A program made the position numbers and the translations under genes. The notes below the pieces were generated by a model. That model saw only the letters and a list, made by a program, of their open reading frames with translations, was not told the origin of the DNA and did no database searches. DNA of 64,000 nucleotides from IMG/VR virus record IMGVR_UViG_3300032271_000682, positions 25,796-89,795 of that record. One strand, written 5' to 3'. The stretch comes from a virus. Below, one piece after another: positions 4,831 through 61,579 of the stretch; positions within the stretch are counted from its first letter, which is position 1; each line of letters opens with the position of its first letter.

Positions 4831-6224
4831 ACATTATAGACAAACGATTTAGCAATCAGATAAAACTGGCAATTTGTATTTTCCCCAGTGATATACTCAA
4901 GAACGAAATTCTTGCCGAGAAAATGACAGAGTATACTCGCTTCTACGCACTACGTTTCAATCAAATATTAGAGACTGATAGTACGCTGGACGTACATTAT
5001 GCTTCAACAATTGAAGCTGCACTAGAACAATACAGTGACAAGTACGATCATCTGCTATTAATGGCGGCCGGTGTTCGTATATTCAAAATGGACATTTTAT
5101 TTGATATTGAGCAAATGATACTAGATAATCCAAACTACTTCTGTGCAGCACATATATTAGACTGGAAAGAACGTTGGTTTGAGTTACATCATCAGTTTGT
5201 ATTAGTAAACACTCAGCAGTGGAAGAAATGTGGTCGTCCTGAGTACGGAGGATGGACTGAAGCTATAGAAGAATTACCTGTGATAGAACGTAGTGTAGAA
5301 AACTTTCATGATGACTACACACCGTTATGGATTAAATTCACCGGTGAGTATTCACAACAACGTCATCAAGTACAGGGTTGGAATTTTATTAATGTAGCAG
5401 CAAGACATGACATGGAAATCTTAAATTGGCCACAGCACATTAGACTTAAGCGTACATACTATTATCCAGAGAGTCAAAGCGATGATTTCTTAAATAGTTT
5501 AAATACTTTAGATGTCACAAAAATTACAAACCCTAATCAACAAAGACTGATAGAGTCATGTAATGCCGTCAGACATCAAATTTGGGTAATCAATAGTGAA
5601 CATATGAGATTCATTGATACAGAAGAAACTTACGATACGGTAGTAACAACCGCCAGTGGTTTTAAGTTTCTAGACGCTTATCATAGTAATTTATTGTTTT
5701 GTGGAGTATGCCGACACTGTGATGAATCAAGCAAGTTGATTATTTATGATTTTAACCCACTTAGCATTGCTTGGGTAAAATATCTACACAGTAGTGATAA
5801 TGAAAATATTGCTGAGTTAGTTGAGACGTTTGAACATCGTCAGCACTTTAAGATATTAGGTGATGATGTGTTTAGTTCAACCGGCTCTTATACTAAATCA
5901 TTCAGTGATGGGTTAGAGATTACCAAAGAATATTTTGGAGGACACAGTAACTTTATAGCACTACTGCGACAATTCAGACAGTCACGAGTAGAATTTATAT
6001 TGAGTGATCTTTATAACGCTTCTCAAGAATTAATTGTTCATTTCAGAGGTAAAACACTGTTCAATATATCAAACATATTCTGTACTGATGTGGGCAATGC
6101 CTATTATGGAATGAGAGAGACAAAGCTAAGATATCGACGATTACTAGACAGTATTAGCGTTGACTGTACTATTGTTGGGCATGATGCTGACTGTGAACAA
6201 ATTAGTTTAAGAATTAATAACTAA
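4827..6224 (+). CDS. Glycosyltransferase-like phage protein of unknown specificity
   Basis: This is a 465-residue protein. The N-terminal half reads like the glycosyltransferase-related proteins found in large myoviruses (LLLMAAGVRIFK region, WNFINVAARHD near residue 190). The C-terminal half contains LIIYDFNPLSIAW, similar to a small Rossmann or methyltransferase-like segment. No clear DxD motif is visible. It ends the plus-strand operon that starts with the radical SAM genes and converges on a minus-strand gene. The functional call is tentative. Confidence 0.55.
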   Translation: MNIIDKRFSNQIKLAICIFPSDILKNEILAEKMTEYTRFYALRFNQILETDSTLDVHYASTIEAALEQYSDKYDHLLLMAAGVRIFKMDILFDIEQMILDNPNYFCAAHILDWKERWFELHHQFVLVNTQQWKKCGRPEYGGWTEAIEELPVIERSVENFHDDYTPLWIKFTGEYSQQRHQVQGWNFINVAARHDMEILNWPQHIRLKRTYYYPESQSDDFLNSLNTLDVTKITNPNQQRLIESCNAVRHQIWVINSEHMRFIDTEETYDTVVTTASGFKFLDAYHSNLLFCGVCRHCDESSKLIIYDFNPLSIAWVKYLHSSDNENIAELVETFEHRQHFKILGDDVFSSTGSYTKSFSDGLEITKEYFGGHSNFIALLRQFRQSRVEFILSDLYNASQELIVHFRGKTLFNISNIFCTDVGNAYYGMRETKLRYRRLLDSISVDCTIVGHDADCEQISLRINN

Positions 6225-9956: not shown

Positions 9957-10625
9957 TTATGCTGATCTCAACAGCGCGGAATCTATAAAAACTGGATCAG
10001 TTATTACTAATGTACCATCTGATCTAGCCATTACATTGGCAGCATGAAGATCGGGTTCAAAGTCTCCAGAGTTAATCAATGTTTTTGCTATGTCTAATGC
10101 GTCGATCCATTGAGGATGAGTTGATCCCCAATTTATATAAAAACTACTATCTTTATATTTTGGACTATTAGTCATATCGCTTGGCATGCCACTATTTCTT
10201 AGTACACTATTTGACCATTTAATTATTCTTATATCATCATCGTTAGTAACTGGAGTAAGCTTTTCCATTCTAATAGCTGATACTTCAGGAGTAACAGAAA
10301 CTATTCGTTTACTAATAAATTTGGGCATGTGAACGTTATTTGTGTGTTTACGTGCGGTTGATATCCAAGCAGTATAGGCAGTATCGGTTGAGATAAACAC
10401 TTTAAGAACATAAGATAATTTTGAATGACTCCATACTGTCCCAAAACCGCCTGAGCCCAATGGGTGAAATCCATTCTTTAGTAGTACGTCATGCCATTCA
10501 ACTCCCATAGGATAGGGACTATCACTATTTCTGATTCTTTTAGGAACAGGCAAATCTTTAATTTGACTTTTAATGCCAATTAATTCTGTCAATGTATCTT
10601 CTAGTATGATTTCTGTTATTTTCAT
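9957..10625 (-). CDS. Kinase-fold protein with capsid-targeting-like N-terminus
   Basis: The protein has 222 residues. The N-terminus MKITEIILED matches the pattern of T4 capsid-targeting signals, with an I-x-E cleavage-like site. The body carries a glycine-rich loop GSGGFGTVW near residue 57, a following VLKVF with the candidate ATP-binding Lys, and a catalytic-loop-like DLHAANV followed by ITDPV near the C-terminus. These resemble protein-kinase or aminoglycoside-kinase-type folds. Its start overlaps the upstream stop by 1 bp (TAATG) in a three-gene minus-strand operon. The target is unknown. Confidence 0.75.
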   Translation of the reverse strand: MKITEIILEDTLTELIGIKSQIKDLPVPKRIRNSDSPYPMGVEWHDVLLKNGFHPLGSGGFGTVWSHSKLSYVLKVFISTDTAYTAWISTARKHTNNVHMPKFISKRIVSVTPEVSAIRMEKLTPVTNDDDIRIIKWSNSVLRNSGMPSDMTNSPKYKDSSFYINWGSTHPQWIDALDIAKTLINSGDFEPDLHAANVMARSDGTLVITDPVFIDSALLRSA

Positions 10626-10953: not shown

Positions 10954-11643
10954 TTAATCTCTATTCATAAGAGCATCAGTGTCATACACGGGGTCGGTCA
11001 TTACCAAAGTATTACCACGTAACATAAAATTTCCAGTATGTATGTCAAATTTAAATTTAGAGTTATAACTAAATTCTTTTAAAATTTGAATCGCATCCAT
11101 CAATTGTGGATAGGCATTACAGTATTTATTAAACAGATCAATTTCTTCTTTCGACATTCTTCTAGTTTCATTGTGTAACGTTAGTTTAATGAAATATATA
11201 ATATCATTCATTAATTGACCTCTCGTTGGGGCTAATTTTTCCATTCTAATTGCTGATACTTCTGGCGTAATTGGAAATGCTTTCGTACTAATAAATTTGG
11301 GAAAATGTGGATTATTTTTATTTTGAATGCACACGTTAACCCATCCAAGGTATGCTACGTCTGTAGTTCTAAACACTTTTAATACATATTGCAACTTTGG
11401 ATGTTCCCATACTGTTCCGAATGATCCAGAACCCATTGCAGTGAATCCATTATTTGTCATGACATCATGCCATTCTAATCCCAATGGTCGAGTATCAGCC
11501 GCACCTTGATCTTCATCTGGTTTAGGATATTTGAATCCAGGTTTAGGCAAATCTTTGATTTTATTTTTAATACCAACTAGTTCTGTCAATTTTTCTTCAT
11601 CGATTGAGCTATTGGTTTCGGGTAAAAATTCATGTGATTTCAT
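10954..11643 (-). CDS. Kinase-fold protein with capsid-targeting-like N-terminus (paralogue)
   Basis: The start at 11643 (MKSHEFLPE) is chosen because a late promoter box lies immediately upstream and the residues match the family N-terminus; the frame itself is open further to 11673. The 229-residue chain has GSGSFGTVW, VLKVF, EVSAIRMEKL and FDIHTGNF followed by MTDPV. It is clearly homologous to the protein at 9957-10625 across its length. It heads the minus-strand operon of three targeted proteins. Confidence 0.78.
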   Translation of the reverse strand: MKSHEFLPETNSSIDEEKLTELVGIKNKIKDLPKPGFKYPKPDEDQGAADTRPLGLEWHDVMTNNGFTAMGSGSFGTVWEHPKLQYVLKVFRTTDVAYLGWVNVCIQNKNNPHFPKFISTKAFPITPEVSAIRMEKLAPTRGQLMNDIIYFIKLTLHNETRRMSKEEIDLFNKYCNAYPQLMDAIQILKEFSYNSKFKFDIHTGNFMLRGNTLVMTDPVYDTDALMNRD

Positions 11644-11649
11644 TGTATA

Positions 11650-11659
11650 GTATTTATCC
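11650..11659 (-). promoter_or_regulatory. Putative late promoter for kinase-like operon
   Basis: GGATAAATAC on the minus strand ends 6 bases before the ATG at 11643, so the predicted transcript would have almost no leader. Confidence 0.6.
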
Positions 11660-11666
11660 AAAGTAG

Positions 11667-11695
11667 TTGACATATGATATTCATTACAGTATACT
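11667..11695 (+). promoter_or_regulatory. Sigma-70-type promoter
   Basis: TTGACA, 17-bp spacer, TATACT. The predicted start of transcription falls at about 11702, on or next to the ATG of the following gene. Confidence 0.75.
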
Positions 11696-11701
11696 TATAA
11701 A

Positions 11702-11887
11702 ATGAGCACAGAAAATTTATTTGATTTTACAAACGTACCTCAGTCTAAAAAACGAAAAGAGGTCATCGACGATGTTCGTAACATATTGATTGTGGAATTC
11801 TTGGGAGACAAATCCGGAGAATTACAAGCTAAAAAACTATTTGAAGAACTAGTAGGTCGTGGTTTAAAAGTGAAGATAATGTCATGA
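11702..11887 (+). CDS. Small hypothetical protein
   Basis: This is a 61-residue charged protein (MSTENLFDF...). The start lies only 6 bp after the -10 box of a strong promoter, so its mRNA may be leaderless. Its stop overlaps the ATPase/acetyltransferase start by 4 bp (ATGA), which suggests co-expression. I see no domain match. Confidence 0.65.
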   Translation: MSTENLFDFTNVPQSKKRKEVIDDVRNILIVEFLGDKSGELQAKKLFEELVGRGLKVKIMS

Positions 11888-12996
11888 GAACATATGAATT
11901 AACATTAAAATGTGATGCGCCAACTGACTTCTATTGTGTCAAAGCAGCCAACTCGGTTGACTTAGATATTGATAAGAAATTAACACATAATATTAAGATT
12001 AGAGCTGATCTTGACACTCGGTACAATGTTGGTCTTATCATTGGAGCAAGTGGATCAGGTAAGACTACTCTTGCTAAACATATTTGGGGAAACAATTGCT
12101 TTGATACACTACTAAAACCAGATACAGCTCCTATTTCACAATTCGATGAATCATATAGCTATGATGAACGAGTGGCATTCTTAAGCGGAGTTGGTTTAGC
12201 ATCACCCACTTGTTGGATTGCTCCATCTAAAACATTAAGTAACGGTCAACAAGCAAGAGCAGAAGCAGCATTACAAATGGCTAGATTAGACGGTAAGTTT
12301 ACAGTCATTGATGAATTTACTAGTGTAGTAGATAGAACTGTAGCCAAAGCAATGGCACACGCGGTACAAAAACATGCACGAAAAACAGGCAAGACTATAG
12401 CACTGCTCAGTTGTCACTATGATGTATTAGAATGGTTGAACCCAGATTGGGTCATCGATTGTAATACTCAAGAGTACACTGACCGGAGGTCACTTTGTCG
12501 AGGGTTTACCAGAACCGAAGAGCTTGTTTTTGGGATTAGACAACTTACTGACAACAAAAGTTGGAAAGTCTTTAGCAAGTATCACTATCTAAGCGATACT
12601 CTACCACCAGGAAAAAACTATAGTTTTGGATTGTTTAGTGGAGATAATCAGATTGGATTCTGTGCCTTTTCAAATTATGTAATGTGGAAACAAGAACATA
12701 AAGATAAAGGCATTCCAATGGTGTTACATGCTAATCGAATTGTAATTCATCCTGATTATTGTGGGTTCGGTTTGGGTGGCAAGTTTACTGATATATGTGC
12801 TGATCACTTACAAAATGAAATGGGCTTTGATGTTCAGATCAAATTGAGCAGTGCTAGTATGGCTATTTCGCTTAAACGAAATCCACGTTGGGAACTAAGA
12901 GAAGTTAAACGAAACATTCATAATATCTGGAGCAATCACGAGAATCGTAAGGGTAGAATGGATGTAAAAACGTGGTCGTTTAATTTTCTTGGCTAA
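11884..12996 (+). CDS. ABC-type ATPase fused to GNAT-like acetyltransferase domain
   Basis: The protein has 370 residues. The first 200 or so contain a Walker A motif (GASGSGKTT, near residue 57), an ABC signature-like LSNGQQAR near residue 120 and a Walker B FTVIDEF near residue 139, with no membrane segments. The C-terminal part (GLFSGDNQIGFCAF...RIVIHPDYCGFGLGGKF) follows the GNAT pattern, including an acetyl-CoA loop-like GFGLGG. It is a soluble fusion, not a transporter. Its substrate is unknown. Confidence 0.78.
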   Translation: MRTYELTLKCDAPTDFYCVKAANSVDLDIDKKLTHNIKIRADLDTRYNVGLIIGASGSGKTTLAKHIWGNNCFDTLLKPDTAPISQFDESYSYDERVAFLSGVGLASPTCWIAPSKTLSNGQQARAEAALQMARLDGKFTVIDEFTSVVDRTVAKAMAHAVQKHARKTGKTIALLSCHYDVLEWLNPDWVIDCNTQEYTDRRSLCRGFTRTEELVFGIRQLTDNKSWKVFSKYHYLSDTLPPGKNYSFGLFSGDNQIGFCAFSNYVMWKQEHKDKGIPMVLHANRIVIHPDYCGFGLGGKFTDICADHLQNEMGFDVQIKLSSASMAISLKRNPRWELREVKRNIHNIWSNHENRKGRMDVKTWSFNFLG

Positions 12997-13007
12997 TCCA
13001 AATTTTA

Positions 13008-13036
13008 TTGACAATAACGATAAATACGTGTATACT
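13008..13036 (+). promoter_or_regulatory. Sigma-70-type promoter of the tmRNA gene with embedded late box
   Basis: TTGACA, 17-bp spacer, TATACT. A GATAAATAC late-type box (13019-13027) lies inside the spacer, so transcription in both early and late phases is possible. Confidence 0.8.
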
Positions 13037-13042
13037 ATGTTT

Positions 13043-13132
13043 TTAAAGAATTGTTGTAAACCCTGAGTAATCAGGACAGAAGTAAAGAGAAAAGTGTCCA
13101 AGACGAGGGTTCGATTCCCTCCAGCTTCACCA
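13043..13132 (+). ncRNA. ssrA: Acceptor (3') piece of a circularly permuted tmRNA
   Basis: This segment holds the tRNA-like 3' end that belongs with the 5' piece at 13274. The T arm is GAGGG (13105-13109), loop TTCGATT, CCCTC (13117-13121), followed by the acceptor strand CAGCTTC (13122-13128), an A discriminator and encoded CCA (13130-13132). CAGCTTC pairs with GGGGCTG at 13274-13280 over 7 bp with two G-U pairs, one of them at position 3 as expected for alanine charging. GTGTCCA (13094-13100) can pair with TGGACA in the other piece. A CCTGA/TCAGG hairpin lies at 13062-13075. The exact 5' end is estimated. Confidence 0.88.
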
Positions 13133-13144
13133 TAAAGGGATTAC

Positions 13145-13333
13145 ATGAATTACATTGACAATACAATAGTGCTTGAAAACGGCAGAACAGTACATTATAC
13201 AAAAGATGTATCTAAAATGTCGCTTAAAGAAGCTAATAAAATGTTAGTCACTATTAGAAAGTCTCTTTATGATGGGGCTGACCAGGTTTCGATTGGGCAA
13301 AGAGTAACGGAATGGACAACTCGACACAGATAG
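13145..13333 (+). CDS. Possible small ORF in the tmRNA intervening segment
   Basis: This 62-codon frame starts 12 bp after the CCA end, preceded by an AGGGAT ribosome-site-like sequence. It runs through the spacer between the two tmRNA pieces and about 60 bp into the 5' piece. The first 43 codons read like a real protein (NGRTVHY, MSLKEANKMLVTIRKS). The last 19 come from tmRNA sequence. It may be a gene remnant trapped in the spacer, or a genuine overlapping gene. It would be cut by tmRNA processing. Confidence 0.35.
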   Translation: MNYIDNTIVLENGRTVHYTKDVSKMSLKEANKMLVTIRKSLYDGADQVSIGQRVTEWTTRHR

Positions 13334-13430
13334 TCGTAAAAAGTAAACAACCAATAAATGCTAACGATGAAAATTGGGCATTAGCCGCTTGAAAAAGTTG
13401 CTTAGGGTAGGAAATACCTCGTAACAGAAA
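13274..13430 (+). ncRNA. ssrA: Coding (5') piece of the permuted tmRNA, with tag ANDENWALAA
   Basis: The piece begins GGGGCTGACCAGG and then TTTCGA, the classic tmRNA 5' end with its D-like loop. The tag frame is GCT at 13360 to TGA at 13390-13392 and encodes ANDENWALAA, one change (Y to W) from the E. coli tag. The order 3' piece, spacer, 5' piece is the circular permutation that yields a mature two-piece tmRNA. TGGACA (13313-13318) is complementary to TGTCCA in the acceptor piece. The 3' boundary is estimated, just before the terminator. Confidence 0.9.
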
Positions 13431-13435
13431 ATACC

Positions 13436-13464
13436 AATAGGGACTTTCGAGTCCCTATTTTTTT
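13436..13464 (+). terminator. Intrinsic terminator after tmRNA
   Basis: A 10-bp perfect stem (13436-13445 with 13450-13459) closes a TTCG tetraloop and runs into a T tract ending at 13464. Confidence 0.92.
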
Positions 13465-13467
13465 GAC

Positions 13468-13476
13468 GATAAATAC
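13468..13476 (+). promoter_or_regulatory. Putative late promoter
   Basis: GATAAATAC lies 21 bases before the ATG at 13498 and directly after the tmRNA terminator. Confidence 0.55.
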
Positions 13477-13497
13477 AGTATATGTTAGAGTATCACA

Positions 13498-28251: not shown

Positions 28252-28530
28252 ATGTCAGACACACAAGATCATGATCAAACGATGTTTACGAGTGATCAAA
28301 AATTAAAACTAAATCAACTAATCAACGAGGGCATGCAAGTCATGAACGAAGTTGAAACACTCAATAGTGGTTTATCGGATACCATTAAGGCAATGGCAGA
28401 AGAAATGAATATCAAAGCCACTGTTCTTAAAAAAGCAATTAAGGTTGCTCATAAAATGGAATTTGGCCAAACTCAACGCGATCACGAATTGCTAGAAAAC
28501 ATTCTTACTACAGTAGGAAAAACTCTTTAA
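28252..28530 (+). CDS. Small helical protein, possibly DsbA-like (double-strand DNA binding)
   Basis: This 92-residue all-helical protein resembles, in size and layout, the T4 DsbA-type transcription-associated DNA binding proteins (IKAMAEEMNIKATVLKKAIKVAHK, then a short helix). It has a strong AAGGAG site and overlaps the DNA polymerase start by 1 bp. The DsbA assignment is tentative. Confidence 0.55.
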   Translation: MSDTQDHDQTMFTSDQKLKLNQLINEGMQVMNEVETLNSGLSDTIKAMAEEMNIKATVLKKAIKVAHKMEFGQTQRDHELLENILTTVGKTL

Positions 28531-31253
28531 TGAGTTATGTTGATTGTCTGCATGATCGTGATAAAGACGTTATTCACGTTGTAGAACGAGTTGACGGTAA
28601 ACGTATTTACAAAGAGTATCCAACAAACTACGTATTGTATTACGAAGATTCAAAAGGAAAATATCGTTCTGTATACGAAGATTCTCTAAGCAAATTTTCT
28701 TGTAGAAAGCGAACTGAGTTTCAAAAAGAACTTAGAATGCATTCTGGAAAGAAAATATTTGAAAGCGATATTAATCCAGTTTTTCGTATGCTATCAGATA
28801 ATTATCTTGGAAAAGAAAGTCCTAAGCTTCATACATGCTTTTTTGACATTGAAACTGACTTTGATCCACAAAAAGGTTTTGCGCCAACTACTGATCCATT
28901 TAATCCAGTTACCGCTATATCGCTATATCTAGATTGGGCTGATCAATTAGTTACTCTTTGTATTCCTCCTAGACATATGGATCCAGAAACTGTAACAGAG
29001 ATATCCAACTCATTTGAAAACACATTTGTTTTTAAAAATGAAACTGATATGTTCAATATGTTTTTTGAGTTGATTGAAGATGCAGACGTACTAACTGGTT
29101 GGAACTCAGCAGGCTATGATATTCCGTATATGGTTAATAGAGTAACTAGAGTAATGTCTAAAGATGATACTCGCAGATTCTGTTTATGGAATCAATTGCC
29201 AAAACCTAGAACCTATATCATGTTCGATCAAGAACAAGAAACGTATGATCTAAGCGGCAGAATTCATATGGACTATCTAGAACTGTATAAGAAATATAAC
29301 TATGAATCACGACACAGTTATAAGTTAGATAGTATTGGAGAAATGGAAGTTGGAGAAAACAAAACTCAATACGAAGGATCTCTTGATCAATTATACAATA
29401 AAGATTGGCGTAAGTTTTTAGAATACAATCGTCAAGATACTATGTTATTGTTCAAGATTCATGACAAATTAGAGTTTTTATATCTAGCTAACGATATTGC
29501 TCATCAAAACGGAGTATTGTTACCAACTGCCATGGGCAGTGTGGCTATGATTGATCAATCAATTATCAATAAAGCTCACGCTCGTGGTTTTATAGTTCCA
29601 TCAAAAACGAGACAAATACAAAATGACGACGACGATGACGAAAAAGCAGCAGGTGCCTACGTTGCTGTGCCTAAGAAAGGAATCCATGAATCTATCGGGG
29701 CAGTCGACCTTAAATCACTTTACCCGTCAAACATCCGTGCTCTTAACATGGCGCCAGAAACCATCATCGGTCAAATTAGACCGCACATGACCGATAAGTA
29801 CATTTCTGATCGTATGGCAGATTCTATATCAGCCAAAGGAAAGAAAATCAAAGGTATGAAGTTTGCAGAAGCATGGGACGGATTATTTGGTACACTTGAA
29901 TATACTGCAGTAATGAATCAAGAGCGTGGCACTATGCTAACTGTTGATTGGGAACGTGGTGATTCTGAAGAGGCCAGCGCAGCAGAAATTTGGAAAATGA
30001 TATTTGATTCAAATCAACCATGGATGCTATCAGCTAATGGTACTATCTTTACTTATGAAAAAGAGGGTATTATTCCTGGTCTGTTAACTGAATGGTTCAA
30101 TGAACGTATTGAAATACAAAAACAAATGAACTTGGCAACCACTGTCGAAGAGCGTGAGTTTCTTGATAAACGTCAGTTAGTTAGAAAGATTTTACTAAAC
30201 TCTGCATATGGTGCATTACTGAATGAACATAGTAGATTCTATGACATCAGATTGGGTCAAAGTACTACACTGGGCGGTCGTTGTATTGTTAAGCATATGA
30301 GTGCTTTCTTAAACGAAGCAATCACTGGAGTATACGATCATAATGGTGAAGCTATCATTTATGGTGACACTGACTCTTGTTATTTTTCTGCTTGGCCAAT
30401 TTTGTCTAAAGATCCAGAAATGAAAGAACGTTGGAATAAAGACATGGCAATTGAAGTGTATAATGGTCTTAGTGAACAGGTCAATGCATCATTTCCTCAG
30501 TTTATGGAATCATCATTTCATGTGCCTCGTAAAAATGGTAAGATTATTGAGTGTAGCAGAGAACTAGTTGCTGATCGTGGCATCTTTATGACCAAGAAAC
30601 GTTACGCTGTGAATATCTACGACAAAGAAGGCAAACGTCTTGATGTTAATGGTAAGCGTGGTAAGATTAAAGCCATGGGTCTTGATTTGAAACGAGCAGA
30701 TACACCTAAGTATGTTCAGCAATTCTTGTCTAAGATTCTTGATTTTGTACTAGAAGGAACCAATCGTGATGTTATCATTAAAGAGATTAGAGAGTTTAAA
30801 CATCTGTTATCTAAAAATGATCCATGGACTAAAGGTAGACCAATGGGCGTCAAGAAAATAACTCACTACGCTGAATTACTAAAAAGAGAAGCACAATCTA
30901 CCACTAGAAGAATGACTAAGAAAGTAAGCCCACCCGGTCACGTTAATGCTTCTATCAATTGGAATTTCTTACGTGATATGAATGGAGACAAATATTCACA
31001 AAAAATTGTGGATGGAATGAAGATTGTAGTTTGTCAACTTAAAGATAATCCACTTCAGATGACTTCAGTTGCTTATCCAGTAGATCAGCTAAGATTGCCA
31101 ACTTGGTTTAAAGATTTGCCATTTGATGAAGAGGCAATGATGCAGTCTTTGGTTAACGATAAGATTGAGAATTTGATTGGAGTTCTTAACTGGGACGTAG
31201 AAGCAGATAGCAATATTAATAGCACATTCTCTTCGCTATTCTCATTCGGTTAA
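28530..31253 (+). CDS. DNA polymerase, family B (gp43-like)
   Basis: This 907-residue replicative polymerase has a proofreading 3'-5' exonuclease. Exo I FDIETD is near residue 105, exo II GWNSAGYDIP near 190, and exo III YNRQDTMLL near 297. Polymerase motif A DLKSLYPS is near 393, motif B KILLNSAYG near 553, and motif C YGDTDS near 611. All catalytic aspartates are present. Length matches T4 gp43. The clamp gene follows 64 bp downstream, the expected partner. Confidence 0.97.
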   Translation: MSYVDCLHDRDKDVIHVVERVDGKRIYKEYPTNYVLYYEDSKGKYRSVYEDSLSKFSCRKRTEFQKELRMHSGKKIFESDINPVFRMLSDNYLGKESPKLHTCFFDIETDFDPQKGFAPTTDPFNPVTAISLYLDWADQLVTLCIPPRHMDPETVTEISNSFENTFVFKNETDMFNMFFELIEDADVLTGWNSAGYDIPYMVNRVTRVMSKDDTRRFCLWNQLPKPRTYIMFDQEQETYDLSGRIHMDYLELYKKYNYESRHSYKLDSIGEMEVGENKTQYEGSLDQLYNKDWRKFLEYNRQDTMLLFKIHDKLEFLYLANDIAHQNGVLLPTAMGSVAMIDQSIINKAHARGFIVPSKTRQIQNDDDDDEKAAGAYVAVPKKGIHESIGAVDLKSLYPSNIRALNMAPETIIGQIRPHMTDKYISDRMADSISAKGKKIKGMKFAEAWDGLFGTLEYTAVMNQERGTMLTVDWERGDSEEASAAEIWKMIFDSNQPWMLSANGTIFTYEKEGIIPGLLTEWFNERIEIQKQMNLATTVEEREFLDKRQLVRKILLNSAYGALLNEHSRFYDIRLGQSTTLGGRCIVKHMSAFLNEAITGVYDHNGEAIIYGDTDSCYFSAWPILSKDPEMKERWNKDMAIEVYNGLSEQVNASFPQFMESSFHVPRKNGKIIECSRELVADRGIFMTKKRYAVNIYDKEGKRLDVNGKRGKIKAMGLDLKRADTPKYVQQFLSKILDFVLEGTNRDVIIKEIREFKHLLSKNDPWTKGRPMGVKKITHYAELLKREAQSTTRRMTKKVSPPGHVNASINWNFLRDMNGDKYSQKIVDGMKIVVCQLKDNPLQMTSVAYPVDQLRLPTWFKDLPFDEEAMMQSLVNDKIENLIGVLNWDVEADSNINSTFSSLFSFG

Positions 31254-33032: not shown

Positions 33033-33181
33033 AATCATTAGTCTATTTTATGTTTATCATTCTTTGGCTTTGCGGTATCGTTATTGCCAAAGGTTTCTGG
33101 TCAACGTTCTTCGCGTTAGTGTTTCCATTCTGGGGATATTATCTTGTCGCTGAACAACTGGTACACAAATACTTATTATGA
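33029..33181 (+). CDS. Small membrane protein
   Basis: This 50-residue ORF is coupled at both ends by ATGA overlaps (with 32796-33032 and with the UV endonuclease). Two hydrophobic stretches (about residues 4-20 and 25-40) predict a small inner-membrane protein. Confidence 0.6.
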   Translation: MKSLVYFMFIILWLCGIVIAKGFWSTFFALVFPFWGYYLVAEQLVHKYLL

Positions 33182-34197
33182 ACAAACGAATCGGGTTTGC
33201 ATGTAAATGGATTGATACTCCAGATCAAACTGACGGTATCAAACCAAAAGACAATGCTCGTCAATACACGACAGGTACTACAACAGTAGCTTGGCTTTCA
33301 CGTCAAACTCGTGACGTTGCTGAACAACGTCTGTGGGACTTAATGGTAGGTAACATCGAGGCAACACGCAAACTAGTAGAAAAGGTAGGAACACTAAATG
33401 AACGATTACGTATGGTACGTCTTAGTAGCGATATCTTGCCCGTTTATACTCATTGCGATTGGAGTTATTTCTGGGCTAGGAGTGACGTTATTACGTACTG
33501 CGAAAAGCACTTTAGATCGATTGGAGATAGTGCTATCGCTCGTGGGGTTAGGCTTAGTTTTCATCCAGGTCAGTTTACTGTTCTGGCTAGTGCTAACGAC
33601 AACATTGTAGAAAACTCAATAAAGGAATTTGAATATCATGCAGACATGGCTAGATGGATGGGCTACGGAAAAAGTTTTCAAGACTTCAAAATCAACGTTC
33701 ACATTTCCGGCAAACGCGGCCCGCAAGGTATCCGTGAAGTATTGGGCAGATTGTCATCAGAAGCTCGTAACTGTATCACGTTAGAGAATGAGGAGTGCGC
33801 TTGGGGTTTAGATGATTGTCTCAGTCTTAGCGATGTTGTCCCCACTGTATTAGATATACATCACAACTGGATAAAAACAGGTGAATACATTGATACAAAT
33901 AGTGACAGTGTTAAACGAGTTATAGATAGCTGGAGGGGCATACGTCCTACTATGCACTACTCAGTCAGCCGCGAAGATGTTCTAGCGGATCATTGTAAAA
34001 AAACATTGCCTGATCGTGATCTCTTAATCAAGAATGGTAGCAACAAGCAGAAATTACGTGCTCATTCGGACTTCTATTGGAATACCGCGGTAAGTGATTG
34101 GGCGTTATCGTTCAATGACAACTTTGATATCATGTGTGAATCAAAAGGAAAAAATCTTGCCTCATTTGAATTATATGAACGAACTAAAAACGTCTGA
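33178..34197 (+). CDS. UV damage endonuclease (UvdE/UvsE family)
   Basis: This 339-residue protein cuts 5' to UV photoproducts, starting an alternative excision repair. The start MNKRIGFACKW is typical, and LSFHPGQFTVL, NVHISGKRG, LENEE and LDIHHNW give the metal-binding His, Glu and Asp residues of the TIM-barrel fold. Length is normal. It is coupled by ATGA overlap to the preceding small membrane ORF. Confidence 0.93.
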   Translation: MNKRIGFACKWIDTPDQTDGIKPKDNARQYTTGTTTVAWLSRQTRDVAEQRLWDLMVGNIEATRKLVEKVGTLNERLRMVRLSSDILPVYTHCDWSYFWARSDVITYCEKHFRSIGDSAIARGVRLSFHPGQFTVLASANDNIVENSIKEFEYHADMARWMGYGKSFQDFKINVHISGKRGPQGIREVLGRLSSEARNCITLENEECAWGLDDCLSLSDVVPTVLDIHHNWIKTGEYIDTNSDSVKRVIDSWRGIRPTMHYSVSREDVLADHCKKTLPDRDLLIKNGSNKQKLRAHSDFYWNTAVSDWALSFNDNFDIMCESKGKNLASFELYERTKNV

Positions 34198-44347: not shown

Positions 44348-44756
44348 ATGGCATATTCGGCTGCTGTACTGGATCATTATGAAAATCCAAGAAATGTAGG
44401 ATCATTTGATAAGGAGGAAATAGCGCAAGTGGGAACCGGCATGGTCGGTGCTCCCGCTTGCGGTTAACGGAGATGTAATGAAGTTACAAATCAAAGTCAT
44501 TGATGGAATTATTACAGATGCTAAGTTTAAAACATACGGGTGCGGTAGTGCCATTGCCAGTTCATCATTAGTCACTGAATGGGTCAAGGGAAAAACTCTT
44601 GATGAAGCAGCGACAATTAAAAACACTCAAATCGCTCAAGAACTCGCTCTTCCGCCGGTCAAGATTCACTGTTCAATACTTGCAGAAGATGCTATTAAAG
44701 CTGCTATAGCAGATTATAGGAAAAAGCATGATGTTATCTCTGAAGTATTGGCCTGA
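44348..44756 (+). pseudogene. iscU: IscU-like iron-sulfur scaffold split by a 7-bp frameshifting insertion
   Basis: The frame from 44348 encodes DHYENPRNVGSF...GAPACG and then stops at 44465-44467. The +1 frame (44448-44756) continues with GDVMKLQIKV to the end. Relative to the family sequence ACGDVMKL, the extra bases are GGTTAAC (44462-44468). All three scaffold cysteines are encoded (GAPACG; YGCGSAIA; IHCSILAED), so a full protein needs a frameshift or correction. It has a good GGAG site. Deformylase and IscA follow. It could be broken, recoded, or an assembly error. Confidence 0.78.
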
Positions 44757-45219
44757 TCCAGTGCTATTAAAGCCATGTGCATTGTGGGACTTTAATAATC
44801 CCCCAGTTCAAACCGATTTTTTAATGGCTGACATGATAGAGACCATGGCTAAAAGTGGCGGCATAGGATTAGCTGCCAATCAAGTTGGGATATCATATCG
44901 TGTTATAACAATGCACATACAGGAAACTGACGAATATATTACAATGTTCAATCCAGAAATTGTATCAATCAGTGAGCATATGTATGTTGCTCGTGAAGGA
45001 TGTTTAAGTTTCCCACGAGTGATGATTGATGTTGAGAGACCAAAAACAGTAGAAGCAACTTGGATGAATAGAAATCAAAAACTTGAAACTAGAACATTCA
45101 GTGATATTGATGCTAAGTGTTTTCTACATGAAATTGATCACTTGAATGGGATTACGTTTAAGGATCATATTAGTCAACTTAAATTTGACAGAGCAGTTAA
45201 ACGGGCAAAGAAAAAATGA
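44728..45219 (+). CDS. def: Peptide deformylase
   Basis: This 163-residue enzyme removes formyl groups from nascent chains. All three motifs are intact: GIGLAANQVG near residue 46, EGCLS near 91 and HEIDHLNG near 133, supplying Cys and two His metal ligands and the catalytic Glu. Length is normal. The start overlaps the iscU end by 29 bp. Deformylases are known in marine T4-like phages. Confidence 0.95.
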   Translation: MMLSLKYWPDPVLLKPCALWDFNNPPVQTDFLMADMIETMAKSGGIGLAANQVGISYRVITMHIQETDEYITMFNPEIVSISEHMYVAREGCLSFPRVMIDVERPKTVEATWMNRNQKLETRTFSDIDAKCFLHEIDHLNGITFKDHISQLKFDRAVKRAKKK

Positions 45220-47544: not shown

Positions 47545-47581
47545 TATATTTGAATAAATGATTATAACGCAAGGAACATAT

Positions 47582-48208
47582 ATGATCAAAGATGTTACGG
47601 AAGAATTAGATAAAAGTCCAGGAGATGCTCTTAGATCAAATGGAATGTACGTTTTTATGGACGAAGTAAATTCAGAAACCATAAAGCCAGTAATTGAATG
47701 GATTTTATATGAAAATTATGTTTCCGTTCCGCGTAAAAAAGAATTACTGTTAATGATATGTAGTGAGGGTGGAGACTTATCTGCCGCATTTGCTCTTATT
47801 GATACAATGAAATCCAGTCAAATTCCAATTAAAACGGTAGGTCTTGGATTAATTGCCAGTTGTGGATTATTGATTTTTATTGCCGGAACAAAGGGTCGTC
47901 GTGTACTAACGCCAAATACCAGTATACTGAGTCATCAGTTTTCGGCTGGATCAGAAGGAAAAGCTCATGATTTATTTGCCACAGTCAAAGAGTTTGAACT
48001 CACTCAAGTACGAATGATCAATCATTATAAAGAATGTACTGGACTGTCCGAATCAATGATTAAAGAAAAATTACTACCGGCACAAGATATATGGCTAGAT
48101 GGCGAAGCAGCTCTTGAACTAAACATATGTGATGCCATATCAGAATCAAATTCTAAAAATGAATCGTCAAAAAAATCAAAAAAATCAAAAATCACTCTTC
48201 CAAAATAG
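47582..48208 (+). CDS. Divergent ClpP-family protease
   Basis: The start at 47582 (MIKDVTEE) follows an AAGGAA site. The 208-residue product has the crotonase-like ClpP fold: ICSEGGDLSAAFALIDTM matches the NSPGG region, LIASCGLL holds the nucleophile Ser position, LSHQF the His, and DIWLDGEAALEL the Asp position. A Lys-rich tail (KKSKKSKITLPK) is extra. It differs strongly from the canonical ClpP at 49617 and could form mixed rings with it. Confidence 0.82.
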   Translation: MIKDVTEELDKSPGDALRSNGMYVFMDEVNSETIKPVIEWILYENYVSVPRKKELLLMICSEGGDLSAAFALIDTMKSSQIPIKTVGLGLIASCGLLIFIAGTKGRRVLTPNTSILSHQFSAGSEGKAHDLFATVKEFELTQVRMINHYKECTGLSESMIKEKLLPAQDIWLDGEAALELNICDAISESNSKNESSKKSKKSKITLPK

Positions 48209-48262: not shown

Positions 48263-49180
48263 ATGACAATGTTAGATCGCGCTCAAGGGTGTCTACTCGG
48301 ACTTGCAGTGGGCGATGCAGTTGGTACTACAGTAGAATTCAAAGATCGTGGTACTTTCCCACTCGTGACAGACATGGTAGGTGGTGGGCCTTTTAGTCTT
48401 AAGCCAGGACAATGGACTGATGACACTAGCATGGCTCTGTGTTTGGGTTATAGTTTAGTAGAAAAAGGGTTTGATCCACTTGATCAAATAACTCGCTATG
48501 TTGAATGGTTTGAAGAAGGATATATGAGTTGTACTGGCAGATGCTTTGACATTGGAGCAACAACTAAAGGATCACTTCGTTACTTTCAAAAAGACCCATT
48601 AAAAAATCCAATTGCTGGATCTACTCACTTTATGGATTCAGGTAACGGTGGCATTATGCGTCTTGCTCCGGTGCCAATCATGTATGCTCTGAACATGAAT
48701 AGAGCAATCGAACTAAGTGAAGTACAATCTATGATCACTCATGGTTCAGATGAATGTTTGAAAGCTGCTAGTATGTTTGGAGAAATTCTTGTACGCGCTC
48801 TAAATGACACGAGCAAAGAAGAAATTCTACGACTTGATATGTCTGAGTCAACTAGTGAACTAAAATCATTAGAAAACATTGCTCGTGGTACATATTTTAA
48901 CTCAACAGAAAACGATATACGTGGAAGTGGTTATGTAGTTGAATCATTGGAAGCAGCATTGTGGTGTTTTTATACTACTGAAAATTTCAAAGATTGTATT
49001 CTTAAAGCTGCCAATTTAGGTGATGATGCTGATACTACAGCAGCAATCGCTGGTCAAATAGCAGGAGCTTATTACGGATTAGCTGGTATTCCGGTTGAGT
49101 GGGTGCAACGAGTCGCTTGGAGTGATCGTATCCTAGAACTAGCAGCAGATTTGGTAAACAAACAAGAGGATGTAAAATAA
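48263..49180 (+). CDS. ADP-ribosylglycohydrolase (DraG-type)
   Basis: This 305-residue protein removes ADP-ribose from targets. GLAVGDAVG at the start, WTDDTSM near residue 52, SGNGGIMR near 126, and GDDADTTAA near 253 carry the paired Asp/Thr magnesium ligands of the family. It could reverse ADP-ribosylation by host toxins or by the phage itself. It overlaps the next gene by 1 bp and shares an operon with the canonical clpP. Confidence 0.93.
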   Translation: MTMLDRAQGCLLGLAVGDAVGTTVEFKDRGTFPLVTDMVGGGPFSLKPGQWTDDTSMALCLGYSLVEKGFDPLDQITRYVEWFEEGYMSCTGRCFDIGATTKGSLRYFQKDPLKNPIAGSTHFMDSGNGGIMRLAPVPIMYALNMNRAIELSEVQSMITHGSDECLKAASMFGEILVRALNDTSKEEILRLDMSESTSELKSLENIARGTYFNSTENDIRGSGYVVESLEAALWCFYTTENFKDCILKAANLGDDADTTAAIAGQIAGAYYGLAGIPVEWVQRVAWSDRILELAADLVNKQEDVK

Positions 49181-49620
49181 TGTTCTGGAACAAAAAAATT
49201 ATAGAAGTATTCAAAACTGATACTAGTAAACTTGACGATATTAAGGATCAAATGGACGATATAGATCGTGTATATAACAATCCTGAAAATGCCTACGAGA
49301 GTATGACCATAGAAAGATTTTCACGAGATGCCGAATCATTTCGTATTATGCAATCTTATTACGTCAAGTCTAAAATGTTGGCGCAATTTAAAAAAGACGT
49401 TGGTGAATTACGAGCTGTTGTAGAAGGCAACGGAGAATACTGGGGTACATATCAGCGTAGATACCAAGAATGTCAACTCAGATTGGAAGATGCTCAGTTA
49501 CACTTACGACTAGAAAAAGAAATGTATCTGAAACTGTATGAAAAGAATCGTGAGTTAGAAACCAAATTGTATATGGCAGAACGTGAATTAGAAATTTTAA
49601 AAACGGAGAAAGCAGAATGA
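49180..49620 (+). CDS. Coiled-coil hypothetical protein
   Basis: The 146-residue protein is helical, with a long C-terminal coiled coil ([29 protein letters not shown]). It is coupled to the glycohydrolase (1-bp overlap) and clpP (4-bp overlap). Its position suggests a relation to ClpP work, but nothing proves it. Confidence 0.7.
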
Positions 49621-50207
49621 GTTTAGTCCCAATGGTAGTAGAACAAACATCTCGTGGCGAACGTAGCTATGACATTTATAGTCGTTTGTTACGTGATCGT
49701 ATTATTATGCTACATGACGATGTTAATGAGCAAAGTGCATCTATTATCGTGGCTCAGTTATTGTTCTTGGAGAGTGAAGGAGACAAAGACATTCACTTTT
49801 ATATCAATAGTCCAGGCGGTAGCGTAACTGCTGGTATGAGCATTTATGATACCATGCAGTTTATCAAGTGCGACGTTAGCACAATCGTAATGGGTCAGGC
49901 ATGTAGCATGGGTAGTTTATTGGCTCAAGCTGGTGCAGCAGGCAAGCGATTGATTCTTCCATATGCCAGACATATGATTCATCAACCAAGTGGTGGTGCT
50001 CGTGGTCAAGCTACTGACATGGAAATTCAAGTTAAAGAGATTATTAAAATGAAACGAGAATTAACTCAAATTTACGTTAATCATAACTCAGTTAACAAGA
50101 CCTATGATGAATTATCAAAAGATATGGAACGTGATTTCTTTATGAGTGCTACAGAAGCCGTAGAATATGGTTTAGCAGACAAGATTATCACAAAACGTGG
50201 AGAGTAA
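49617..50207 (+). CDS. clpP: ClpP protease, canonical
   Basis: The 196-residue protein forms the proteolytic barrel partnered by ClpX. The catalytic Ser lies in [11 protein letters not shown] near residue 98, His in [13 protein letters not shown] near 122, and Asp in ERDFFMSA near 171. NSPGGSV and the C-terminal EYGLADKI are typical. Length matches E. coli. Coupled by 4 bp upstream and 1 bp downstream. Confidence 0.96.
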
Positions 50208-59642: not shown

Positions 59643-61520
59643 TTACTTAGTTTCAGTAAATTCCGCATCTACTACTGGATCATCTTTTGAAGCATTTTCT
59701 TTTGCCATCTTTTTTTCCATTAATGGTCCAATTGTGGCGTACAATTCATCTACTGATTTAGTAATTGCTTCTACATCTTCACTTGTAAGTTTAGATTCAA
59801 CTGATTCGATTGCTGTATTAATTGCAGTCTTTTCATCTTCGCTTAATAATTCACCGTGTTCTTTCAGATCACGCTTAAACTCATGAACTGAACTTTCGGC
59901 ACGATTACGAGTTTCGATCAATGTTCTAGTTTGCTTATCGCTTTCAGCATTTTCTTCAGCTTCACGAATCATCTTTTCAATCTCAGCTTCACTTAAACCA
60001 GAATTAGATTTGATAGTAATTTTATTTTCTTTTCCAGTTGCTTTATCTGCCGCTTTGATATGCATAATGCCGTTGGCATCAATATCAAATGAAACTTCAA
60101 TTTGTGGTAAACCACGACGAGCAGGTGCAATACCTTCAAGATTGAATTCACCCAATAATTTGTTATATTGAACTAACTCACGTTCACCTTGAAAAGCTTT
60201 AATAGTGACAGCAGATTGATTATCTTCAGCAGTTGAAAATACTTGACTTGCCTTGGTAGGAATAGTCGTATTCTTCTGAATAAGTTTAGTCATAACTCCG
60301 CCCATAGTTTCAATACCAAGTGATAGTGGTGTTACATCTAGTAGTAACACGTCATTACGATCACCAGCAAGTACAGCACCCTGAACTGCGGCTCCTGCTG
60401 CAACTGCTTCGTCTGGGTTAACATCTTTACGAGGAGTTTTGCCAAATAACTTTTCTACTGCTTCTTGAACTTTGGGCATACGAGTTTGACCGCCGACTAG
60501 AATAACTTCATCTATGTCACTTGCCGACACTTTAGCATCCTTCATGGCAACTTTACATGGCTCAATACTACGAGCGATTAAATCTTCTACCATGCTTTCA
60601 AGTTTAGAACGTGTGATAATAATATTCATATGACGTGGTCCACTAGCATCAGCGGTGATATATGGTAGATTGACTGCAGTTTGTTGAGCAGATGACAATT
60701 CAATCTTAGCTTTTTCTGCTGAATCCTTAAGTCTTTGAAGTGCCAATACATCATTTTTCAAATCAACTCCGCTGTCTTTCTTAAACTCTTCTACTAAGTA
60801 ATCCATGATACGTTGATCGAAGTCTTCCCCGCCCAAGAATGTATCACCATTGGTACTTAATACTTCGATTTGTTTATCGCCTTCGACATTCGCGATTTCA
60901 ATGATTGACACGTCGAATGTACCACCACCCAAATCGTAAACAGCAATTTTCCTATCACTGTTATCAGTTTTGTCAACCCCATACGCAAGAGCAGCAGCAG
61001 TGGGTTCATTAATAATGCGAAGTACTTCCAAGCCTGCGATTTTACCAGCATCTTTAGTTGCTTGTCTTTGACTGTCGTTAAAGTACGCAGGAACTGTGAT
61101 AACTGCTTGAGTAACTTCATGTCCTAAATAATCCTCTGCTGTCTTTTTCATTTTTCTAAGAACTTCAGCACTAATTTGTGGTGGAGCAAGTTCTTTGTCA
61201 TTTACACGAACCCATGCATCACCGTTTTTGGCTTCCATGATAGTAAATGGCATCATGTCGATGTCTTTTTGTACTGCTTGTTCTTTGAATTTACGACCAA
61301 TTAGTCTTTTGGCAGCATAAATTGTATTTTTTGGATTGGTTACTGCTTGACGTTTAGCACTAGCGCCTACTAAAATTTCGTCGTTTGTGTATGCAATGAT
61401 TGATGGTGTTGTACGTGTACCTTCGCTATTTTCTAGAACTTTAGCGACGCCGTTTTCTACGATAGCAACTGCTGAATTTGTGGTACCTAAGTCAATACCT
61501 ATTACTGATGATTTGCTCAT
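59643..61520 (-). CDS. dnaK: DnaK (Hsp70) chaperone
   Basis: The start at 61520 ([12 protein letters not shown]) follows an AAAGGAGATAATC ribosome site; the frame extends 11 codons upstream without support. The 625-residue protein has [33 protein letters not shown] and the C-terminal substrate domain with [14 protein letters not shown], ending in DAEFTETK. It is full length (E. coli has 638). No DnaJ or GrpE is in this window, so the host co-chaperones may be used. Confidence 0.97.
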
Positions 61521-61579
61521 GATTATCTCCTTTAAGTAAGCAAGAATGTACATAGACCTCTATCGAGCATCTACATAAT

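Follow-up and report, generated by a model that had tools for sequence, protein, structure and literature searches.

We consider it highly probable that a jumbo phage of the T4 superfamily carries a functional two-piece (permuted) tmRNA of the betaproteobacterial type, and that the intervening segment (IVS) between the two pieces also serves to house a small gene of the phage. The tmRNA gene lies in a stretch of 64,000 nt (the window) taken from an IMG/VR virus record of 89.8 kb. What carries this reading is the anatomy of the gene, its conservation and covariation in relatives, the coding signature of the relatives' IVS ORFs, and phage genes for ClpX and ClpP.

A permuted tmRNA gene in a T4-type phage

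ARAGORN reports a permuted tmRNA as the sole RNA gene of the window (Table 1), and two Rfam covariance models match the same region, i.e., beta_tmRNA (RF01850; 13029-13461, 103.4 bits against a cutoff of 84, E 2.4e-30) and tmRNA_permuted (RF04321; 13074-13392, 94.3 bits, cutoff 47). Given that the piece with the acceptor and T arm is encoded upstream of the piece with the D-loop and tag, that the acceptor stem GGGGCTG/CAGCTTC pairs at 7/7 positions (including G2-U71 and the G3-U70 pair joining both pieces), that both scores exceed the curated cutoffs, and that a resume-codon tag frame ends in hydrophobic-Ala-Ala, we file the gene as a permuted tmRNA. The initial annotation had read the locus in the same way, with an acceptor piece ending at 13132 ahead of a 5' piece starting at 13274, a 7-bp acceptor stem with G-U at position 3, the tag ANDENWALAA, a consensus promoter and a TTCG-loop terminator, and all of these hold. 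It was right on this anatomy but missed the ORF within the spacer, and one helix we set aside: the pairing TGGACA/TGTCCA thought to join the pieces finds no support, as TGTCCAA pairs better with TTGGGCA (P2), and in relatives TGGACA is nearly invariant (65/75) against a changing partner whereas P2 covaries. Including the RNA-borne alanine the tag reads AANDENWALAA, which differs from the E. coli tag by one residue. In the predicted precursor fold (z -4.7) a 12-bp stem formed by the IVS ends stacks on the acceptor stem; the piece boundaries and the processing into two RNAs are predictions from the sequence.

Table 1 Features of the tmRNA locus and of the Clp genes in the 64,000-nt window
Feature	Position	Strand	Basis
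sigma70-type promoter, TTGACA-17 nt-TATACT	13008..13036	+	sequence
Permuted (two-piece) tmRNA gene	13040..13483	+	ARAGORN call
P2 helix, 3'-piece strand TGTCCAA (partner 13293-13299)	13095..13101	+	covariation in relatives
T arm GAGGG-TTCGATT-CCCTC, canonical U55	13105..13121	+	sequence
Acceptor 3' strand CAGCTTC, discriminator A and encoded CCA (ends 13132)	13122..13132	+	sequence
Intervening segment (IVS), 141 nt, excision expected; ends form a 12-bp stem	13133..13273	+	predicted fold
Nested ORF MNYIDNTIVLENG... (62 aa; MNYIDNT...)	13145..13333	+	codons 1-43 in the IVS, then 5' piece
Acceptor 5' strand GGGGCTG, start of 5' piece	13274..13280	+	sequence; RNase P site 13273/13274 inferred
D-loop segment ACCAGGTTTCGA with G18 G19	13281..13292	+	
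P2 helix, 5'-piece strand TTGGGCA	13293..13299	+	covariation
Tag reading frame ANDENWALAA and stop	13360..13392	+	sequence
Intrinsic terminator, TTCG loop	13436..13459	+	sequence
Phage ClpX, 406 aa	41158..42378	+	NF003745, 535 bits, cutoff 359; loops checked
Second ClpP-like protein, 216 aa, triad residues in place	47558..48208	+	PF00574, 99.5 bits; alignment
ClpP (canonical), 196 aa, triad residues in place	49617..50207	+	NF001368, 300 bits, cutoff 249; alignment

The DNA polymerase of the window (28530-31253) matches phrog_262 with 627 bits, i.e., it is T4-type, and the isolates closest to it are the jumbo phages Atu_ph07 and Phosso, in agreement with the initial label of a T4-like phage. 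The beta-type RNA suggests a betaproteobacterial host. An attempt to infer the host from the tag found the pattern ANDENWALAA in none of the GTDB species genomes scanned, a further difference from the betaproteobacterial two-piece tmRNAs.

Conservation and covariation in relatives

A search of viral contigs with the window ORF, which toward its C terminus runs through the 5' piece, yielded 80 loci, and the tmRNA gene recurs in dozens of viral contigs; RF04321 was found in 34/34 viral records tested, 30 of them above the cutoff. Across 24 distinct tRNA-like domains, pairing holds in 96.7% of the cells that make up the acceptor, T and P2 helices, and double changes occur at 13 of the 19 pairs. 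Slid and shuffled controls stay far below this (pairing falls to 37-57% when the partner is slid). P2 alone is paired in 91.7% of cells, with double changes in 6/7 pairs. The G3-U70 pair is kept in every one of 74 unique tRNA-like domains, and nearly all relatives retain a complete tag frame ending in ALAA. The initial annotation had staked its identification on a covariance-model match and on the recurrence of stems and tag in related phages; both are found, and it thus stands by its own test.

Parts of the gene appear mobile. A near neighbour (L002), whose flanking DNA is 96% identical to that of the window, has another acceptor stem, IVS and tag (ANEDSFVAERLAA), and we therefore consider that gene parts are swapped between close phages. 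The tmRNAs of the window (13095-13400) and of L005 (6755-7180) differ almost exclusively in the T arm, the D loop and one small hairpin, where the stems are preserved by compensating changes, i.e., a local rapid change of the elbow. Six loci (L054, L055, L058, L079, L110 and L117) have unusually long predicted tags of 26-31 aa (e.g., ANASKGEVTVSAGKGIRFSARSSVKAETFAV), some of which are missing the LAA end.

Putative protein-coding sequences within the intervening segment

The IVS ORF of the window begins 12 nt past the CCA, behind a Shine-Dalgarno sequence (AAAGGG, 13134-13139) that sits in the 12-bp stem of the predicted precursor, and its stop is a TAG (13331-13333) inside the 5' piece. On its own it gives a shuffle p of 0.03, and the single distinct relative family offers 3 differences in 43 codons, distributed 0/1/2 over codon positions 1/2/3; it is supported as a gene mainly through likeness to the IVS ORFs of relatives.

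These relatives provide a much clearer coding signature. Unique IVSs with a length of 95 nt or more number 24, almost all of them collected by criteria independent of the IVS. In 21 there is an ORF beginning 8-12 nt past the CCA and spanning at least 0.89 of the segment, and many of these ORFs end precisely at a TGA one base before the mature 5' end. A second, pattern-based set (CCA + TAAGGA + ATG) gave 37 complete permuted tmRNAs, in 33 of which the ORF fills the IVS; as the pattern sets the start and not the length, ORF length is an independent result. Stops in this set fall at -1 (12), at -12 or -13 (9), or inside the 5' piece, so that 21/37 ORFs end before the cut. In 13 families with at least two members dN/dS is below 1 in 24/24 computable pairs (0.05-0.90; at most 0.5 in 20), and differences over the three codon positions amount to 160, 120 and 330 across family pairs, pairs sharing members in both counts. 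What marks the phage group is, in short, an ORF that fills the IVS, with a ribosome-binding site and purifying selection.

Unrelated ORFs occupy the spacers of relatives, beginning and ending at fixed places. In one case (L331) the IVS (about 5354-5626) is filled by a complete 82-aa thioredoxin with the WCGPC motif (PF00085, 73.7 bits), within a tmRNA that matches RF04321 and has an A18/G55 elbow (see below). The same ORF (MKISELTSGYLGQ) is found in L118 and L319, whose tmRNAs have different elbows, and thus the IVS acts as an exchangeable slot. Short, ORF-less spacers are common among phage tmRNAs, and no filling ORF was seen in five isolate phages with a permuted tmRNA (IVSs of 57-126 nt). 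None was present either in 13 clean Burkholderiales tmRNA genes with IVSs of 5-42 nt, controls that were defined by RF04321 loci because many bacterial genes are without a full encoded CCA. Credible homologs of IVS ORFs were found neither as stand-alone genes in phage records (two ORFs tried) nor in PHROGs (ten ORFs tried). We regard the nested ORFs as candidates for translated, functional genes.

In the window, RNase P is expected to cut at 13273/13274, precisely at the boundary of codons 43 (GAT) and 44, and the processed IVS would therefore end with a complete codon and lack a stop, as a nonstop message. We limit this hypothesis to the window and to the class of IVS ORFs that read through in frame (7 more).

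A joint switch in the tRNA-like elbow

With positions numbered by analogy with tRNA, the relatives fall into two elbow classes, U55 with G18 (49 unique) and G55 with A18 (24 unique), and no mixed cases occur (Fisher p 8e-20, with no correction for relatedness). The G55 class spans 15 different D-loop and acceptor contexts (carriers are L072, L105, L111, L126, L058, L083, L100, L102, L123, L130, L003 and others), and positions 54 and 58 switch together as well (U,A in 66 vs G,G in 7). The window itself is canonical (U55/G18), and among its close relatives L003 belongs to the G55 class while L005 and L006 have an 8-nt T loop. ARAGORN misses both kinds, and with several such genes overlooked phage tmRNAs are under-counted. 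The variant was not seen in the 13 Burkholderiales tmRNAs. A tRNA review describes the G18-Psi55 contact and calls Psi55 universally conserved (PMC4810234); a word search of this review and of PMC7912444 returned no mention of A18 or G55. The joint 18/55 switch offers a naturally occurring test of which functions depend on the tRNA elbow.

Phage ClpX, ClpP and the search for SmpB

The combination of a tmRNA with ClpX and two ClpP-type genes is present in four long records of the group, those of L002, L003 and L064 besides G000. Of the ClpX features that read the ssrA tag (pore-1 GYVG, pore-2 T/V, RKH loop and IGF loop were checked), the phage protein keeps IGF and has RKN in place of RKH. In E. 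coli ClpX the H230A exchange strongly raises KM and the tag is bound poorly (PMC7652416); by this comparison RKN would count against our preferred explanation. Viral contigs contain many relatives of ClpX (364 matches), and the tmRNA is above cutoff in 5/6 ClpX-bearing records longer than 150 kb, a count that comes without a fair control set and proves no tmRNA-ClpX association, which we set aside.

SmpB was found in none of 34 records searched, that of the window included, while positive controls were detected; the tmRNA would therefore depend on host SmpB, as the phage-encoded SmpB expected of a complete phage trans-translation system was not found. The initial proposal that the virus could tag proteins itself is plausible, provided that SmpB comes from the host.

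Predicted pathway and alternative readings

The pathway that we predict comprises processing, charging, tagging, degradation and translation of the IVS ORF. The strong sigma70-like promoter would give a transcript of about 420 nt, in which one long helix would be formed jointly by acceptor stem and IVS end stem; host RNase P together with 3' processing enzymes would excise the IVS, and the acceptor and P2 helices would keep the two resulting RNAs joined. Host AlaRS would charge the RNA via G3-U70, and with host SmpB stalled ribosomes would be rescued and (A)ANDENWALAA appended, the LAA end being of a kind that ClpXP of host or phage may read. The excised IVS would also provide the place for a small gene of the phage (MNYIDNT... 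in the window), and as the Shine-Dalgarno sequence of that gene itself serves as a strand of the IVS stem, RNA folding would compete with its translation. A broader synthesis is tentative and, taken as a whole, rather doubtful: in uncultured aquatic phages the spacer would be an exchangeable gene slot whose Shine-Dalgarno sequence in the processing stem lets maturation and translation regulate each other, the nested mRNA of the window would be made nonstop by RNase P and cleared by the same tmRNA, and the elbow would change from G18-U55 to A18-G55 as a unit, possibly escaping a host enzyme that reads it.

The alternative that we take most seriously, and still hold for unlikely, is that the tmRNA works while the spacer ORF of the window is open by chance and only the RNA matters. 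A shuffle p of only 0.03, so few differing sites against one relative, a frame that passes the junction without meeting a stop and continues in the 5' piece, and the short ORF-less spacers of many phage tmRNAs would all agree with it; however, start distance, Shine-Dalgarno sequence and stem geometry are like those of the clearly coding IVS ORFs and the thioredoxin, and the three differences lie 0/1/2 over the codon positions. There is a small chance that the window ORF is instead an arfA-like sensor, whose protein builds up only under overload of trans-translation as the cut after codon 43 creates a nonstop mRNA. The cut is in register with the frame and other IVS ORFs read through in that frame, but such register is expected by chance one time in three, and the nonstop form is not general given the stops of relatives before the cut (mostly at -1, -12 and -13).

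Two further readings concern the RNA itself. A tag-less tmRNA-like RNA of phage DS6A is reported, as cited in PMC11915505, to inhibit the endogenous tmRNA in E. coli, and by analogy the RNA described here might chiefly act as a decoy for, or a regulator of, host trans-translation instead of tagging proteins; we find this improbable, as a decoy has no need of the ALAA-ending tag frame that nearly all relatives keep, and ClpXP genes are present in the same phage. The odd T loops of some relatives, missed by ARAGORN, could be taken as signs of a tmRNA captured from a host and decaying, its function lost. This reading is very improbable and already largely refuted by the compensatory changes in every helix, the invariant G3-U70, D-loop changes that always match the odd T loops, intact tags, and the presence of promoter and terminator.

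Relation to known systems

A permuted tmRNA in a phage is in itself a known type, and the novelty implied by the initial annotation is reduced accordingly: the gene is real, but phage-borne two-piece tmRNAs have been published (PMC9004378, PMC7162821). Reported are 53 two-piece tmRNAs among 18,146 phage genomes (PMC9004378), 79 phage tmRNAs of all forms together (PMC11915505), and huge phages with both tmRNA and SmpB (PMC7162821). Within the open-access literature we found no description of a protein gene in a tmRNA IVS, and this is the new feature. For IVSs, PMC11915505 describes a tRNA gene as well as a repetitive element, and for group I introns endonuclease genes; a word search of this paper gave no mention of protein genes in an IVS.

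With the betaproteobacterial two-piece tmRNAs (RF01850, RF04321) the window shares gene order, acceptor and T arm, P2, the resume region and the LAA tag end; it differs in being phage-borne and in its 141-nt IVS with an ORF, against the short ORF-less IVSs of the 13 bacterial genes. The marine methylophage Melnitz (PMC9004378) likewise has a permuted tmRNA in a T4-like myophage with no SmpB reported, although its RNA is of the alphaproteobacterial type with a glutamine riboswitch, whereas that of the window is beta-type with a sigma70-like promoter. As here, tmRNA and clpX/clpP occur in one genome in Sinorhizobium phage AP-J-162 (PMC11242549) and in huge phages (PMC7162821); for AP-J-162 no link between tag and protease was proposed and no nested ORF reported. 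The tmRNA genes with group I introns (PMC11915505) also have a protein gene in a removed segment, i.e., that of a homing endonuclease. In the window and its relatives, by contrast, the removed segment is the permutation spacer, with tRNA-type processing expected in place of self-splicing, and the relatives' IVS ORFs are diverse small phage genes with no endonuclease seen. The stop-less message of E. coli arfA is repressed by trans-translation (PMC10107115) and the same is predicted for the processed IVS of the window; the likeness is an analogy only, in which the missing stop would come from RNase P.

A tmRNA with a protein gene in its excised spacer would couple ribosome rescue and the expression of a phage protein in one transcript, and the IVS ORFs yield a set of uncharacterised phage proteins.

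Other genes in the window

The gene directly upstream of the tmRNA (11884-12996) combines an ABC/P-loop-like part with a weakly Mom- or acetyltransferase-like C-terminal part, and its relatives occur in many phages (phrog_11143). Farther upstream, two adjacent minus-strand ORFs (9957-10625 and 10954-11673) resemble diverged copies of one kinase-like protein (GSGGFGTVW...VLKVF). The two clpP-type genes flank an ADP-ribosylglycohydrolase gene (48263-49180; PF03747, 259 bits). The window also encodes a UvdE-type UV endonuclease (33178-34197), a peptide deformylase (44728-45219) and, on the minus strand, a full-length DnaK (59643-61553, 970 bits).
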